This document shows positions 5,152-64,000 of a stretch of DNA of 64,000 nucleotides, one piece after another. Location of the stretch: NCBI GenBank assembly GCA_033344915.1, contig JAWPML010000001.1, forward strand, positions 1,360,369-1,424,368, in the 5' to 3' direction. The stretch is from Acidimicrobiales bacterium (GTDB lineage Bacteria > Actinomycetota > Acidimicrobiia > Acidimicrobiales > Aldehydirespiratoraceae). The position numbers were made by a program, and so were the translations under genes. Position 1 is the first letter of the stretch. Each line of letters begins with the position of its first letter. Under the pieces are notes generated by a model. That model did not search any database and was not told the DNA's origin. It saw only the letters and a list, made by a program, of their open reading frames with translations.

Positions 5152-5919
5152 ATGCCGCCTGAGACGGACGACGCGTCAGCTGAGCCTGCTGTGACGGCCC
5201 GGATCGAAGCGATCCTGGCCGAGCTCGAGGATGCCGACTTCGAACGGCTCGACCCGCCACCGGTCGTCTGGGAGGGAATCGAAGCGGCGATCGGCTCCGG
5301 CGCGGAGCGTTCGCCCAAGATCCCGCCGTCCCGCGACCTCTCGTCCCGCACGGTGGTCGAGTACTCGATCGACGCCGACGATGTCGTGATCGACGTGGGG
5401 GCGACCTGGACGCAGTTCGCCGAGGACAACGATGCCCCTGAGCTGGGAGTTCTATCCCCGGATCGCACCCTCTGGAGCTACTTCGAGGGCGACGACGTGA
5501 CGGAATTGTGGCGCCTTCTGGTGGCGCGGGTCAGAACCCTGCAGCAGCCGGCCCAGGTGCCACTGCGATGCGACGCTCCGCATGCCCGACGGTGGTTCGA
5601 CATGGCGGTCACGCCGGCGCCCGACGGCGCGGTGCGCTTCCGATGCGACATGGTCTTCGAGGAAGCGCGGCCGGCGGTGTCGCTTCTCGACACCCACGCG
5701 GAACGCGACAGCGAGATGGCGGCCGTTGCGCTCTGCAGCTGGTGTGCACGAGCCCAGGACGGCGTTCGCTGGCTCGACATCGAGACGTTGGTCCGGGAGT
5801 TGCGCCTGTTGGAGCGCACGGCCGTGCCCTCGATCGCCCACGGGATCTGCGCGTCCTGTCGGGAGGAGATGGCGGCAGAGCTACTCGTTCCCGCCAACCA
5901 CCGCGACGCTTCGAACTGA
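5152..5919 (+). CDS. PAS-like protein with CxxC...HGICxxC zinc-ribbon-like tail
   Basis: The protein has 255 residues. Residues 10-50 (RIEAILAELEDADFERLDPPPVVWEGI) resemble the N-terminal region of actinobacterial anti-sigma factors. The centre (about 68-185) reads like a PAS-type sensory fold. The C-terminal part has CSWCARAQDG...WLDIE and, further on, SIAHGICASC. This matches the CxWCxxxRD...FSHGICPxC module known at the end of many PAS sensor proteins and suggests a structural zinc site. No kinase, cyclase or DNA-binding output domain is present. A role in signalling by protein-protein contact is an inference. TAGGCT lies 6 nt before the ATG, suggesting a leaderless mRNA. Confidence 0.7.
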   Translation: MPPETDDASAEPAVTARIEAILAELEDADFERLDPPPVVWEGIEAAIGSGAERSPKIPPSRDLSSRTVVEYSIDADDVVIDVGATWTQFAEDNDAPELGVLSPDRTLWSYFEGDDVTELWRLLVARVRTLQQPAQVPLRCDAPHARRWFDMAVTPAPDGAVRFRCDMVFEEARPAVSLLDTHAERDSEMAAVALCSWCARAQDGVRWLDIETLVRELRLLERTAVPSIAHGICASCREEMAAELLVPANHRDASN

Positions 5920-57535: not shown

Positions 57536-57991
57536 TCAGGCGTCCATCAGGGTCGCCGCCAGGGTGGCGGCCAGCTCCCAGGTCTGATCGGACAGGGCCT
57601 CGTCCACGGGACCGATCAGGCCCAGCGGCGGCTGGACGGCACGCCACTGGAGTCCGGTCGTGATCTTCTCGATGGCCGCAACGGCGCCGGTGGTGTCGGA
57701 CTCTCCGTGGACCCAACAGCCGTAGGGTCGCCGGGCGGTGCGATCGACGGACGGGTTGTAGACGACGTCGAACCAGTGCTTGAGCGCCCCACTCATGTAC
57801 CCGAGGTTGGCCGGCGTACCGAGCAGATACCCGTCCGACGCGGCGACCAGTTCGGGGTCCGGATCGAGGGCCTCGGCGACGACCACCTCGACGCCCTCGA
57901 TACCGGGAGCGGCGGTACCCGCGACGGCGGCGTCGAGCAGGGCGCGCAGGCCGGGGGTCGGGGAGTGGTGCACGATCAGCAGGCGGGCCAC
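57536..57991 (-). CDS. Flavodoxin-family FMN protein
   Basis: The 151-residue protein starts at GTG 57991 (VARLLIVHHSPTPG); ATG 58030 would add 13 residues before the first strand. The flavodoxin fold shows the phosphate-binding loop HHSPTPG (about 8-14), the LLGTPANLGYMSGALKHWFD flavin-contact loop and GCWVHGES. It probably reduces or carries electrons with NAD(P)H. It is convergent with the SDR gene (6-nt gap) and divergent from the selenoprotein gene, so a functional link is possible. Confidence 0.85.
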   Translation of the reverse strand: MARLLIVHHSPTPGLRALLDAAVAGTAAPGIEGVEVVVAEALDPDPELVAASDGYLLGTPANLGYMSGALKHWFDVVYNPSVDRTARRPYGCWVHGESDTTGAVAAIEKITTGLQWRAVQPPLGLIGPVDEALSDQTWELAATLAATLMDA

Positions 57992-58064
57992 CAGCCGAGC
58001 CTGCCAGACGGGCGCGCTGCGTCGCCTCATGCTCGTCGCCCGCTCGACATGGCATCATCGGCTG

Positions 58065-58382
58065 ATGCTGACGCTGTACTACAACGCCAATTGAAGCAAG
58101 GCCCGCGGAGCGGTCGCTCTGCTGGACGAACGTGGGGTCGACTACACGATCCACAACTATCTCGAGGATCCGCTCGACGCCGCCCAGCTCACCGAGCTCG
58201 TGGCCATGGTCGGTGGTGATCCGGCGGACATGGTCCGCACGTCGCTCGACGACACGAGCGCGGCCGCCGTCGTCGCCCATCTCGTCGACCACCCGGCCGA
58301 CATGCAGCGCCCGATCGCCGTCCTCGACGGCCGCGCCGTGATCGGCCGCCCCTCCGAACGCGTCCTCGAGATCCTCCCCTGA
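58065..58382 (+). CDS. Selenoprotein: ArsC-family (arsenate reductase-like) protein with Sec at residue 10
   Basis: ATG 58065 to TGA 58380-58382 gives 105 residues with one internal TGA codon at 58092-58094. Read through, the start is MLTLYYNAN-U-SKARGAVALL, the exact shape of the ArsC/Spx fold start (LYHNPxCSKSRxALxLL), with the TGA in place of the catalytic cysteine. Downstream conservation is intact: MVRTSLDD, MQRPIAVLDGRAVIGRPSERVLEIL, i.e. the R-P-I-x-V and G-R-P motifs. A hairpin with a GGTC loop starts 10 nt after the TGA (58102-58125). Frame conservation on both sides argues against a nonsense mutation. It is likely a Sec-dependent thiol reductase or arsenate reductase. Sec synthesis genes are not in this window. 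Confidence 0.82.
58102..58125 (+). promoter_or_regulatory. Predicted bacterial SECIS element
   Basis: Right after the TGA, GCGGAGC (58105-58111) pairs with GCTCTGC (58116-58122) in seven pairs including one G-T; outside a one-base mismatch two more C-G pairs (58102-58103 with 58124-58125) extend the stem. The loop is GGTC (58112-58115). The loop starts 17 nt after the TGA. The known E. coli fdhF element also presents GGUCU in its apical loop at a similar distance from UGA, which is what SelB recognises. Confidence 0.72.
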
Positions 58383-58557: not shown

Positions 58558-59685
58558 CTAGACGAGGGTGTCGAGGGCGGTGTCGAGGCGGGCGACGGCG
58601 CCGTCGACGTCGGTGAGCTTGTCGAGACCGAACAGGCCGAGCCGGAAGGTGGAGAAGTCGTCGCCCTCATCGCACATGAGCGGCACGCCGCCCGCGATCT
58701 GGAGGCCGGCCGCGGCGAAGGCGGCGCCGCTCTTCACCGCCGGGTCGTCCGTGTAGGACACGACGACGCCGGGGGCCCCGAACCCGTCGGCCGCGACGCT
58801 GCGGATGCCGCGATCGGCGAGGAGGGCGCGTACCCGGTCGCCCAGTTCCTGTTGCGCGGCGCGGACCGTGTCGAACCCGATCGCGGCGGTCTCGGCCATG
58901 ACGTCGCGAAACGCCGTGATCGCGTCCGTCGGCATCGTCGCGTGATAGGCGTGGCCGCCCGCTTCGTAGGCCGCCATGATCGAGCGCCACTTGCCGAGGT
59001 CGCAGGCGAAACTGGTGCTCTGCGTCTCGGCCAACCGTGCGTCGGCCCGTTCGTTCAACATGACGAGGGCGCCGAACGGTGACCCGGACCACCCCTTCTG
59101 CGGCGCGCTGATGAGCACGTCGACGCCGATGTCCGCCATGCCGACCCAGATCGTGCCGGACGCGATGCAGTCGAGCACGAAGAGCCCGCCGGCCGCGTGC
59201 GTCGCGTCGGCCACGGCTCGCAGGTAGTCGTCCGGCAGGATCATGCCCGAGGCGGTCTCGACGTGGGGCGCGCACACCACCGCCGGCTTCTCGGACTCGA
59301 TCGCGGCGACCACCTCGTCGATCGGCGCGGGGGCGAACGGCTCGGTGGGCCCCTCCGCCGCGCGCCGCGCCGCGAGCACGGTGTGCGAACTCGGGATCGA
59401 ACCCGTGTCGAAGATCTGGGTCCAGCGGTACGAGAAGAAGCCGTTGCGGATCACCAGGCAGTGCTGGTCCGTCGCGAACTGGCGGGCGACCGCCTCCATC
59501 CCGTACGTGCCGCTTCCCGGAACGATGGTGACGGAGTGGGCGTTGTAGACCGACGCCAGGGTGGTGCTGATGTCGTTCATCACGTCCTGGAAGGTCCGGC
59601 TCATGTGGTTGAGCGCCCGGTCGGTGTAGACGACCGAGTACTCGAGGAGACCATCGGGATCGACATCGGGGCGCAGGCCGGGCAT
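58558..59685 (-). CDS. Class V aminotransferase (alanine/serine-glyoxylate type)
   Basis: The 375-residue protein starts at ATG 59685 (MPGLRPDVDPDGLLEYSVVY). PLP-enzyme features: VPGSGTYGMEAVARQF (phosphate-binding turn, about 55-70), FVLDCIASGTIWVGMADIGVDVLISAPQKGWSG, with D172 contacting the ring nitrogen and K197 as PLP lysine. HVETASGM matches the substrate-side loop. It probably transfers an amino group from alanine, serine or a relative to a 2-oxoacid such as glyoxylate or pyruvate. It is divergent from the iron-sulfur/NrfD operon. Confidence 0.88.
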   Translation of the reverse strand: MPGLRPDVDPDGLLEYSVVYTDRALNHMSRTFQDVMNDISTTLASVYNAHSVTIVPGSGTYGMEAVARQFATDQHCLVIRNGFFSYRWTQIFDTGSIPSSHTVLAARRAAEGPTEPFAPAPIDEVVAAIESEKPAVVCAPHVETASGMILPDDYLRAVADATHAAGGLFVLDCIASGTIWVGMADIGVDVLISAPQKGWSGSPFGALVMLNERADARLAETQSTSFACDLGKWRSIMAAYEAGGHAYHATMPTDAITAFRDVMAETAAIGFDTVRAAQQELGDRVRALLADRGIRSVAADGFGAPGVVVSYTDDPAVKSGAAFAAAGLQIAGGVPLMCDEGDDFSTFRLGLFGLDKLTDVDGAVARLDTALDTLV

Positions 59686-59780
59686 CGGAGCTCGCTTCGT
59701 TCGGGAACGGACGGCCACACGCTCGCAGATCGCGCCGGGCCGTGCCATCACGTGTGGACGCCGCATCGCGCCTACACTCG

Positions 59781-59796
59781 ATTTGTCCGTACATTT
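59781..59796 (+). promoter_or_regulatory. Operator-like motif upstream of the iron-sulfur/NrfD gene (copy 2)
   Basis: ATTTGTCCGTACATTT shares 14 exact bases (TTGTCCGTACATTT, 59783-59796) with 868-881. It lies 15 nt before the GTG start and just after TACACT (59772-59777), a possible -10. A bound repressor would block this promoter. The core is TGT-N4-ACA. Confidence 0.45.
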
Positions 59797-59811
59797 CCGC
59801 GAAGGATCGTC

Positions 59812-61323
59812 GTGACCAGACTCGGGTTCCTCCTCGACAGCGATTCGTGCATCGGGTGCCACGCCTGCACGGTGGCCTGCAAGAGCGAGCACGACGTCCC
59901 CCTCGGCGTCAACCGCACCTGGGTCAAGTACATCGAGACCGGCTCGTTCCCCAACGTCAGCCGTCATTTCTCGGTGATGCGCTGCAACCACTGCGACGAC
60001 GCGCCCTGCATGACGATCTGCCCGACGAACGCGCTCTACCGCGCTCCGAACGGTGTCGTCGACTTCGACGACGACAACTGCATCGGGTGCAAGGGCTGCA
60101 TGAACGCGTGCCCCTACGACGCGATCTACATCAACCCCGAGACCAACACCGCCAACAAGTGCAACTTCTGCAATCACCGCATCGAGCTGGACCTCGAACC
60201 GTCGTGCGTCGTCGTCTGCCCGACGCACGCGATCAAGGTCGCCGATCTGGACGATCCGCTGAACGCGGCGACGAAGATCATCGCCCGGGAGGACGTCGCG
60301 GTGCGCTCGCCCGAGCAGGGCACGAACCCGAAGGTGTACTACCGCGGCGCCGACCAGGCCTCGCTGAATCCGCTCCGCACCGCGATCGCCGACGATGGTC
60401 TGATCTGGGCGGACACCACGCCGGCCCATCCGACCGTGCCACCGGCCACGCACGGGGTGGTCGCCCGGACCACCTACACCACCCCGCACCAGATGACCTG
60501 GAAGGGCAAGGTCTCGGGGTATCTGGTGACGAAGGCGATCGCGGCGGGTGTGATGCTCGTCGCCGCGCTGCTCGTCCTGCTCGGTCACCGCGCCGAGCAG
60601 GCGGCCGTCGGGGTCGTCCCGCCGATGGTCGCGGGCGCGTTCCTGGCGCTCACCGGCGTGTTGCTGGTGGCGGACCTCAAGCAGCCGGGCCGGTTCCACT
60701 ACCTCATCACCCGGGGCAGCTGGGACTCCTGGCTCGTGCGCGGCGCCTACGTCCTCGCCGGGTTCGCCGTCTGCCTCGCCGCCTGGTGGGCCGCGGGGCT
60801 CGCCGACACGCCGACGGCCATCGCCGTGCTGGCGATCCCGACGGCGGTGTTCGCCGCGGGCACGGCCGGCTACACGGCGTTCCTCTTCGCCCAGTGCGAA
60901 GGCCGCGACCTGTGGCAGACGCCGCTGCTGCTCCCGACGCTGTTGGCCCAGGCGATCACCGCCGGGGGAGCCACCTACGCGATCCTCGACCTCGGCATGG
61001 ACCTGCCCTCGGTCGATGCCGTGCACTGGGCGTTCCTCGGCGGCGCCGTCGCCACGCTCGCGCTGCTCTGGATCGAGACGGCATCTCGCAGCACACCGCA
61101 CGTCGAGGCGGCGATGCACGTGCTCACCAGAGGTGGACAGGCGCGGAAGTACCGGCTCGGGGTGGGCGGACTCGTCCTGGCCGCCGTCCTCGTCGTCGTG
61201 AACCTGGCTGCCGCCGAGCCCGAGCCGGCCCTGGGTGCGGCCGCCGGCATCGTCGCCCTCGCCGCGCTGTGGGCCTACGAAGACGCCTTTGTCCGTGCCG
61301 GCCAGTCCGTCCCGCTGTCGTAG
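59812..61323 (+). CDS. Iron-sulfur subunit fused to NrfD-type membrane subunit
   Basis: The 503-residue protein starts at GTG 59812, with GAAGGA 5 nt before it. Residues 1-145 are a four-cluster ferredoxin domain: cysteines 13/16/19/23, 58/61/66/70, 90/93/96/100 and 117/120/132/136 fit four 4Fe-4S sites as in DmsB, PsrB and NrfC. From about 235 there are about eight membrane segments of the NrfD/PsrC type, with AGYTAFLFAQCEGRDLWQ as a marker. Normally these are two proteins. It passes electrons between the quinone pool and the molybdopterin subunit encoded 9 nt downstream. No Tat signal is seen on this protein. Confidence 0.9.
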   Translation: MTRLGFLLDSDSCIGCHACTVACKSEHDVPLGVNRTWVKYIETGSFPNVSRHFSVMRCNHCDDAPCMTICPTNALYRAPNGVVDFDDDNCIGCKGCMNACPYDAIYINPETNTANKCNFCNHRIELDLEPSCVVVCPTHAIKVADLDDPLNAATKIIAREDVAVRSPEQGTNPKVYYRGADQASLNPLRTAIADDGLIWADTTPAHPTVPPATHGVVARTTYTTPHQMTWKGKVSGYLVTKAIAAGVMLVAALLVLLGHRAEQAAVGVVPPMVAGAFLALTGVLLVADLKQPGRFHYLITRGSWDSWLVRGAYVLAGFAVCLAAWWAAGLADTPTAIAVLAIPTAVFAAGTAGYTAFLFAQCEGRDLWQTPLLLPTLLAQAITAGGATYAILDLGMDLPSVDAVHWAFLGGAVATLALLWIETASRSTPHVEAAMHVLTRGGQARKYRLGVGGLVLAAVLVVVNLAAAEPEPALGAAAGIVALAALWAYEDAFVRAGQSVPLS

Positions 61324-61332
61324 GAGACCCTG

Positions 61333-64000
61333 ATGACCGATCTGCGCCAGTACCCACCGCACGAGGACTGGCACGACGTCACCTCACTGAACGCCAAGGC
61401 GTGGCCCGACCGGGTCGAGGAGCACCACTCGCTCGTGCCCACGACCTGCTTCAACTGCGAGGCCGCGTGCGGCTTGCTCGCCCACGTCAACCACGAGACC
61501 GGCGAGATCGACAAGATCGAGGGCAACCCGCTGCACCCGGCGTCGCGGGGCAGGAACTGCGCGAAGGGTCCGGCGACGCTGAACCAGGTGCACGACACCG
61601 AGCGGATCCTCCATCCGATGCGCCGCGTCGGCGAACGGGGCTCGGGCCGGTGGGAGCGGGTCACCTGGGACGAGGCGCTCGCGGACATCGGTGCCCGGAT
61701 CGCGACGGCGATGGACGAGGACCGACGCGACGGGATCATGTACCACGTCGGCCGACCCGGGGAGGACGGCTACGCCGACCGCGTGCTGAAGGCCTGGGGC
61801 GTCGACGGCCACAACAGCCACACCAACATCTGCTCGTCCAACGCCCGGATCGGGTACCAGAGTTGGATGGGCCACGACCGGCCCTCGTCGGACTTCGCCA
61901 ACGCCGAGGTGATCTTCCTCATCTCGAGCCATCTCGAGGCCGGCCACTACTTCAACCCCCACGCCCAGCGCATCATCGAGGCCCAGCAGAAGGGGGCGAC
62001 GATCATCTGTGTGGACCCGCGCCTGTCCAACACGGGGTCGAAGGCCGATCACTGGCTGCCGGCGTGGCCCGGCACCGAGCCCTTCCTGCTGCTGACGATC
62101 GCCCGGCTGCTGCTCGAGAACGGCACCTGGGAGCGCGACTTCGTCCGCCGCTGGACGAACTGGGAGACCTACCTCCGCGAGACCAGGCCGGACCTGCCGG
62201 TGGAGTTCGCCTCCGTGGAGTCGGCCCTGCTCGATGCCTACGCCGAGTACACGCCGGAGGCCGCCGAGGAGATGTGTGGCGTCGACGGCGACGAGCTCCG
62301 GGAGATCGCTGCGATCATCGGCGCCCACCCCACGAAGTTCGCGTCGCACAACTGGCGCGCCGCCGGCGCGGGCAATCTCGGCGGCTGGCAGACCGCTCGC
62401 TGCCTGTTCTTCCTCAACGTGCTGACCGGGTCGGTGGCCACCGTCGGCGGCACGAGCGGCAACGGCTGGAACAAGTTCAAGCCGGCCCAGCCGAAGGGCG
62501 CGCCCGCGCTGCACCAGTGGAACGAACTCTCGTGGCCCCGCGAGTACCCGCTCTCGTACCACGAGATGTCCATCCTGCTCCCGCACTTCCTCAACGAGGG
62601 CCGAGGCACGCTCGACGTCTACTTCAGCCGGGTCTACAACCCGATCTGGACCAACCCCGACGGCTTCTCCTGGATGGAGGCGCTCACCGACGAGTCGAAG
62701 GTCAAGTGCCACGTCGCCCTCACCCCGACCTGGTCGGAGACGTCGTGGTTCGCCGACTACGTCCTCCCGATGGGGGTCGGCACCGAGCGCCACGACGTCG
62801 CCAGCTTCGAGACGCACAACGGTCGCTGGATCGGCTTCCGCCAGCCCGTGTACCGGCGCTACGCCGAGATCCGGGGCGAGGAGCTCGACCACGAGACGCG
62901 CACCCACGAGTTCAACCCCGGGGAGGTCTGGGAGGAGAACGAGTTCTGGATCGACCTCTCGTGGCGCATCGATCCCGACGGATCCCGGGGAATCCGGAAG
63001 TGGTTCGAATCGGACGAGCGCCCGGGTACGCCGATCACGGTCGACGAGTACTACGGCACGATGTTCGCCGAGTCCGTGCCGGGTCTCGCCGACGATGCCG
63101 CCGCGGCGGGGAAGACACCGCTCGAGTACATGCGCGACGTCGGGTCGTACGCGGTGCCCGGCGACATGATCACGCCCTACGCGCGGCTCGTCGGCGACGC
63201 CGAGGTCGCCGACTGCGACAAGGGTGACGACGGGGTGTTCCGCAAGCCCGGCACGATCAGCAACTGGGACGGAACGCCCGCCGGGCTCGAGGAGATCAGC
63301 CTCGCCGATCTCGGGGAGGGATCGCCGGCCGTCGAGGTCGACGGCGAGGTGAAGGCGGGGTTCCCGACGCCCTCGAAGAAGCTGGAGCTGTTCTCCACCA
63401 CGCTGAAGGACTGGGGGTGGCCCGAGTACGCGGCGCCGACGTGGATCCCGTCCCATGTCCACCACCAGGACCTCGACATGGACGCAGGGGAGCGGATCCT
63501 GCTGCCCACGTTCCGGATCCCGACCCTCATCCACACGCGCTCCGCGAACTCGAAGTGGCTCAACGAGATCAGCCATCGCCATCCGCTCTGGATCCACCCG
63601 AGCGACGCCGAAAAGCTGGGGATCGAGGAGAACGGACTCGTCCGGATCACCACCCGCATCGGCCACTTCGTCATCCAGGCCTGGCGGACCGAGGGAATCC
63701 GACCCGGCGTCGTCGCCGCCTCGCACCACATGGGCCGCTGGCGCATCGAAGAGGACCAGGCCCGCTCGTGGGGAGCCGGGAAGGCCACGATCGACAAGCA
63801 GCCCGACGGCACATGGAAGCTGTCGCGCACCGACGGCATCCGCCGTTGGGACAGCGACGACCCCGACACGAACCGGATCTGGTGGAACGACACCGGCGTC
63901 CATCAGAACCTCACCTTCTCCGTGCAGCCCGACCCGGTCTCCGGCATGCAGTGCTGGCACCAGCGGGTCACCGTGGGGCCGGCTGAGTCCGGCGACCAGT
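61333..64000 (+). CDS. Molybdopterin oxidoreductase (DMSO reductase superfamily), 3' end cut by window edge
   Basis: The frame is open from ATG 61333 to the right edge, with 889 visible residues. N-terminal 4Fe-4S site C39-x2-C42-x3-C46-x29-C76 (TTCFNCEAACG ... NCAKGPAT). NSHTNICSSNARIGYQSWMG (about 161-180) holds C167, the likely Mo ligand, so it is a Cys-type enzyme. The molydop-binding domain starts near ERILLPTFRIPTLIHTRS (about 720). No Tat signal is present at the start. With the fused Fe-S/NrfD subunit it forms a membrane-bound respiratory oxidoreductase of the polysulfide/thiosulfate/tetrathionate/arsenate type. The substrate is not determined. Confidence 0.88.
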   Translation, partial: MTDLRQYPPHEDWHDVTSLNAKAWPDRVEEHHSLVPTTCFNCEAACGLLAHVNHETGEIDKIEGNPLHPASRGRNCAKGPATLNQVHDTERILHPMRRVGERGSGRWERVTWDEALADIGARIATAMDEDRRDGIMYHVGRPGEDGYADRVLKAWGVDGHNSHTNICSSNARIGYQSWMGHDRPSSDFANAEVIFLISSHLEAGHYFNPHAQRIIEAQQKGATIICVDPRLSNTGSKADHWLPAWPGTEPFLLLTIARLLLENGTWERDFVRRWTNWETYLRETRPDLPVEFASVESALLDAYAEYTPEAAEEMCGVDGDELREIAAIIGAHPTKFASHNWRAAGAGNLGGWQTARCLFFLNVLTGSVATVGGTSGNGWNKFKPAQPKGAPALHQWNELSWPREYPLSYHEMSILLPHFLNEGRGTLDVYFSRVYNPIWTNPDGFSWMEALTDESKVKCHVALTPTWSETSWFADYVLPMGVGTERHDVASFETHNGRWIGFRQPVYRRYAEIRGEELDHETRTHEFNPGEVWEENEFWIDLSWRIDPDGSRGIRKWFESDERPGTPITVDEYYGTMFAESVPGLADDAAAAGKTPLEYMRDVGSYAVPGDMITPYARLVGDAEVADCDKGDDGVFRKPGTISNWDGTPAGLEEISLADLGEGSPAVEVDGEVKAGFPTPSKKLELFSTTLKDWGWPEYAAPTWIPSHVHHQDLDMDAGERILLPTFRIPTLIHTRSANSKWLNEISHRHPLWIHPSDAEKLGIEENGLVRITTRIGHFVIQAWRTEGIRPGVVAASHHMGRWRIEEDQARSWGAGKATIDKQPDGTWKLSRTDGIRRWDSDDPDTNRIWWNDTGVHQNLTFSVQPDPVSGMQCWHQRVTVGPAESGDQ

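Follow-up and report, generated by a model that had tools for sequence, protein, structure and literature searches.

The locus at 58065-58382 of the stretch of Acidimicrobiales DNA analysed here (64,000 nucleotides, hereinafter the window) encodes a protein of the ArsC family in a frame that contains TGA as its tenth codon. The question is whether this triplet is a genuine stop or specifies selenocysteine (Sec) and, in the latter case, what reaction the resulting protein catalyzes. Gene prediction that takes every TGA for a stop would overlook such a gene or cut it in two.

The reading frame and its product

The features of the gene are as follows.

58065..58382, plus strand: putative gene for a Sec-containing ArsC-family reductase of 105 aa (ATG at 58065, stop TGA at 58380-58382)
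58092..58094, plus strand: TGA at codon 10, predicted Sec at the position of the catalytic Cys (alignment with Cys12 of R773 ArsC; only TGA, TGC or TGT in 157 homologues)
58236..58238, plus strand: codon for Arg58, equivalent of Arg60 of R773 ArsC (alignment; invariant in 39 homologues)
58308..58310, plus strand: codon for Arg82, equivalent of Arg94 of R773 ArsC (alignment; invariant in 39 homologues)
58347..58349, plus strand: codon for Arg95, equivalent of Arg107 of R773 ArsC (alignment; invariant in 39 homologues)

A sequence-only reading of this stretch had proposed an ATG-started frame with TGA as the tenth codon, similarity to ArsC on both sides of the TGA, and placement of the TGA exactly at the catalytic Cys, and all three proposals hold. 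The frame that starts at 58065 runs through the TGA at 58092-58094 and remains open up to 58380-58382. With the TGA read as Sec (U), the product is MLTLYYNANUSKARGAVALLDERGVDYTIHNYLEDPLDAAQLTELVAMVGGDPADMVRTSLDDTSAAAVVAHLVDHPADMQRPIAVLDGRAVIGRPSERVLEILP, where U10 aligns with Cys12 of R773 ArsC. In profile searches, the read-through protein scores 34.8 bits against the Pfam ArsC model, above the cut-off of 24, and, with Cys put for Sec, 78 bits (E 7.4e-22) against TIGR00014 (arsC). The latter score falls below the equivalog cut-off of 106.05 bits, and the protein is therefore assigned to the ArsC family, Grx-type COG1393, and not to the TIGR00014 equivalog. No Shine-Dalgarno-like sequence is evident 5' of the ATG (58053-58065) in the four orthologues that were read, given which the arsC mRNA may be leaderless.

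The protein is predicted to fold as a Grx-type ArsC monomer: the AlphaFold model (pLDDT 95.2) matches R773 ArsC (1i9d) with a TM-score of 0.86 and 3rdw and 3f0i with similar scores, and the nearest solved proteins are ArsC entries (3rdw, 3f0i, 1jzw and 1i9d). Across 39 aligned homologues, residue 10 (Sec or Cys), Tyr32, Arg58, Arg82, Pro83, Arg95 and Pro96 are invariant. In R773 ArsC, the aligned residues Cys12, Arg60, Arg94 and Arg107 have the catalytic and oxyanion-binding roles. The window protein contains no Cys, leaving Sec at residue 10 as the sole chalcogen active-site residue, so that regeneration must use an external thiol; similarly, 77 of the 88 Sec homologues described below contain no Cys. 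A mycoredoxin-like Grx is detectable in the genome at 72 bits, below the cut-off of the respective model.

The UGA codon in related genomes

The orthologues of the window gene in three other genomes, G027, G028 and G030 (86%, 84% and 75% identity, respectively), all carry TGA at codon 10. A search of 51 genomes of the same family yielded matches in 47, and each of the 51 matches carries exactly one TGA. The matches comprise the orthologues of the window gene and a group of paralogues, most of which read HNPxU[N/Q]SS. This UxxS paralogue group is near-ubiquitous in the family; its member in the window's genome (C1:678773-679096) is a second Sec-ArsC of the UxxS type, with a GGUC hairpin 23 nt after the UGA. 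At the level of the class Acidimicrobiia, 142 of 395 genomes contain matches, and the active-site codon in the 157 homologues extracted from them is TGA (88), TGC (61) or TGT (8), with no other codon found. Outside the class, TGA is present in one of the approximately 53 matching Actinomycetota genomes sampled.

Thus, close relatives carry either TGA or TGC at codon 10, and neither the random residue nor the frameshift that the sequence-only reading had named as evidence against Sec is seen there. The TGC form is represented by the orthologue in G077 (C1:4822410-4822721; 64% identity to the window protein), which is nested within the otherwise Sec-containing clade of the window gene (SH-aLRT 99) and is most simply explained as a Sec-to-Cys reversion. 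On the tree, many forks of which are weakly supported, at least nine Sec/Cys changes are required, compared to a mean of 51 for shuffled assignments. The dN/dS values downstream of the TGA, 0.10-0.26 among the four orthologues, indicate that this part of the gene is under purifying selection. The selA gene occurs in 64 of the 65 genomes with Sec-ArsC, the remaining one being 82% complete, versus 38 of 76 Cys-only genomes (p 7e-12, uncorrected for relatedness).

The base immediately 5' of the UGA (58091 in the window, and the equivalent position in homologues) is T in 74 of the 88 Sec genes versus 3 of the 69 Cys genes. The codons CAT, AAT and GGT precede the Sec UGA although these GC-rich genes prefer C in the third position; in contrast, the His located four codons before the UGA in the paralogue group is encoded by CAC in 28 of 28 cases. 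Judging from these codon patterns, the T before the Sec UGA appears to reflect a 5' context constraint.

A candidate SECIS hairpin and the selenocysteine machinery

The following element lies downstream of the TGA codon.

58105..58122, plus strand: putative bacterial SECIS hairpin, stem GCGGAGC/GCTCTGC (58105-58111 and 58116-58122), loop GGTC (58112-58115)

In the RNA, this hairpin (GCGGAGC-GGUC-GCUCUGC) has a 7-bp stem, a loop that begins 17 nt after the UGA, and a folding energy of -14.8 kcal/mol. It conforms to the published bSECIS model, which specifies a loop of 3-9 nt with G in the first two places, a stem of 4-16 bp, a spacing of 16-37 nt, and an MFE <= -7.5 (PMC13188914). This lax rule was rejected as evidence when taken alone because 75% of all TGA triplets in the GC-rich window pass it, and so was folding energy, which gives z of -0.8 against shuffles of the GC-rich hairpin sequence; a scan of the window against Rfam at the gathering threshold produced no matches. 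A hairpin with a GGUC loop and a stem of at least 6 bp, a criterion that was set after the sequences had been seen, follows only one of the 1343 TGA triplets in the window, namely codon 10. Among the homologues, which as related sequences are not independent, the GGUC hairpin is found in 51 of 88 Sec genes and in none of the 69 Cys genes.

The 13 distinct versions of the hairpin are 98.9% paired, with four of the seven pairs changed on both sides and 13 double-changed cells; in the window hairpin itself, a pair that is G-C in the orthologues has become A-U through compensatory changes on both sides. None of 500 shuffles reached the observed value for cells paired, for cells changed on both sides, or for the covariation score, whereas the count of double-changed pairs alone was matched by 84 of 500; control hairpins slid along the sequence are 35-71% paired. 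Each of the six four-fold degenerate codons that form the hairpin in the paralogue group is 96-100% one codon, whereas four-fold codons elsewhere average 62%. Being unique among the TGA triplets of the window, confined to Sec genes and covarying, the GGUC hairpin counts as evidence despite the lack of specificity of the energy and of the lax rule.

By the same criterion, the hairpin is absent in 17 of the 88 Sec homologues, mostly from other clades of the UGKSRGA type. In such clades (e.g., L054, L083 and L117), no GU-loop hairpin follows the UGA by the criterion, and these homologues may use another form of SECIS. The Cys orthologue of G077 retains a hairpin-like stem with the loop GGCC versus GGUC, possibly a relic SECIS.

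The machinery for Sec insertion is encoded in the same genome (G000; 4.48 Mb in one contig). All four genes for which the sequence-only reading had suggested a search, selA, selB, selC and selD, are present: a tRNA-Sec with the anticodon UCA (64 bits, also identified by ARAGORN), selB (275.7 bits) adjoining selA (384.8 bits) in profile searches, and selD (359.8 bits; C1:1225971-1226897). The selD product is also a Sec protein, with Sec at the usual active site (GAGUGCK). Other candidates in the window were discarded: the in-frame TGA triplets at 5917 and 25387 look like gene ends with another gene directly behind them, and the Mo-enzyme at 61333 contains no in-frame TGA.

Genomic neighbourhood and proposed mechanism

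The genes on the two sides of arsC are as follows.

57536..58030, minus strand: conserved neighbour, protein weakly similar to FMN_red/flavodoxin, divergent from arsC and located beside it in G027, G028 and G030
58558..59748, minus strand: conserved neighbour, class-V aminotransferase, convergent with arsC

The orthologues of the window gene likewise lie between an FMN_red-like gene and a class-V aminotransferase gene. No ars gene is found among the flanking genes examined, and a search of the genome for Acr3, among the arsenite exporters, detected none. Hence the fast thiol/arsenate or related reductase suggested by the sequence-only reading is at present a hypothesis. The adjacent region 59743-63999 encodes an Fe-S/NrfD fusion protein together with a Mo-bisMGD oxidoreductase whose best matches are models of the PhsA/DmsA type, with scores far below the cut-offs; no Sec is present.

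The conserved sequence elements and the available machinery suggest that SelB with Sec-tRNA(UCA) would bind the GGUC-loop hairpin after codon 10 and that the ribosome would insert Sec at the UGA, yielding the predicted Grx-type ArsC monomer. By homology to R773 ArsC, Sec10 would attack an oxyanion bound by Arg58, Arg82 and Arg95, in all likelihood arsenate if any single candidate is favoured, and the seleno-adduct would be reduced by an external thiol with the release of arsenite. The external thiol is probably supplied by a mycothiol- or glutaredoxin-like system. The chances that arsenate is the main physiological substrate appear to be about even.

Alternative explanations

A TGA that is a real stop, whether because arsC is decaying or because TGC was misread in sequencing or assembly, would require a change of only a single base from a Cys codon. 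However, four genomes that were assembled separately share this TGA, 88 homologues carry it without any other disruption, dN/dS is well below 1 after the codon, and the conserved hairpin is tied to the TGA and absent in the Cys genes; this explanation is highly improbable and, on the comparative data, can be considered already refuted. Even less credible is the decoding of UGA as another amino acid, through recoding to Trp or Gly in this lineage. Although the read-through as such is well supported by the sequence, TGA serves as the stop of the window gene and of nearly all its homologues, the partner residue in the homologues is always Cys, and a tRNA-Sec(UCA) is present along with the rest of the Sec machinery. 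Taken together, these comparisons indicate that 58065-58382 is almost certainly a true selenoprotein gene. As a whole, the locus is very probably best explained as a gene of the ArsC fold that inserts Sec, with arsenate as the most likely substrate.

The nature of the substrate is where a competing explanation carries real weight: a Sec protein of the ArsC fold could act on another oxyanion or as a thiol/disulfide or persulfide reductase. The neighbourhood without ars genes and the genome without Acr3 fit such a role, as do the coexistence with another Sec-ArsC paralogue in this genome, which hints at divided roles, and the 9-10 residues missing after Arg58 compared to other ArsC. Nevertheless, the three oxyanion-binding Arg are invariant, and a plain disulfide reductase or an Spx-like regulator would not need them; a substrate other than arsenate is accordingly a serious option but somewhat less than an even one. 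A broader proposal, namely that the Sec-ArsC of Acidimicrobiia are a class-wide system of paralogues that exchange Sec and Cys, serve mainly a purpose other than arsenate detoxification, and have their UGA marked by a 5' U context signal besides the SECIS, appears rather unlikely as a package.

Relationship to known selenoproteins and arsenate reductases

As the sequence-only reading had noted, environmental surveys provide a genuine precedent: the prediction of a Sec-containing arsenate reductase dates from 2005 and was based on 14 Sargasso Sea sequences (PMC1088965), and 77 Sec forms of arsenate reductase (ArsC 1), with the motif UxxS, were found in the GOS data (PMC2398784). The family is also listed in PMC9312934 and PMC13188914. 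The expectation, in the sequence-only reading, of an addition to the actinobacterial selenoproteome is likewise correct but modest given that the family has been predicted since 2005. Among the open-licence papers searched, none on Sec-ArsC in Acidimicrobiia was found, although one may exist.

The window protein and the known Sec-ArsC (COG1393/TIGR00014, UxxS) have in common membership of the ArsC family, a Sec that replaces the catalytic Cys, a downstream bacterial SECIS, and the existence of Cys homologues. The window clade differs in having U-S-K-A (UxxA), with Ala13 in all four TGA orthologues, and in being approximately 9-10 residues shorter after Arg58; compared to the metagenomic forms, it has an assigned lineage, Acidimicrobiia, and conserved synteny. 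R773 ArsC of Escherichia coli (1i9d, 1jzw) and the Grx-type 3rdw and 3f0i share with it the fold (TM 0.83-0.87), the single catalytic chalcogen residue and the equivalents of Arg60, Arg94 and Arg107, but are longer and contain Cys instead of Sec. The ArsC-like Sec protein of the UxxC form (GOS ArsC 2; NF041106) belongs to the same superfamily and also has an active-site Sec, but carries a Cys three residues after it, whereas the window protein lacks any Cys. Spx regulators adopt the same fold (TM 0.74-0.81) and function through a CxxC redox switch and contacts with RNA polymerase; the window protein, devoid of Cys, does not have this switch and keeps the ArsC Arg residues instead. The actinobacterial ArsC1 and ArsC2 presumably have the LMW-phosphatase fold, unrelated to that of the window protein. 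These mycothiol-dependent enzymes of Actinomycetota work otherwise, being mycothiol S-transferase-like, and might have the thiol partner system in common with the window protein (PMC4360819).

Altogether, what appears to be new from these sequence comparisons is a subfamily of short proteins that carry UxxA in place of UxxS, together with a wide mixing of Sec and Cys forms across the class Acidimicrobiia. A selenoprotein family so far represented mainly in ocean metagenomes is now placed in an assigned class in which more than half of the extracted homologues are Sec forms, and the window gene and its G077 counterpart constitute a natural Sec/Cys orthologue pair for testing what an enzyme gains from selenium.
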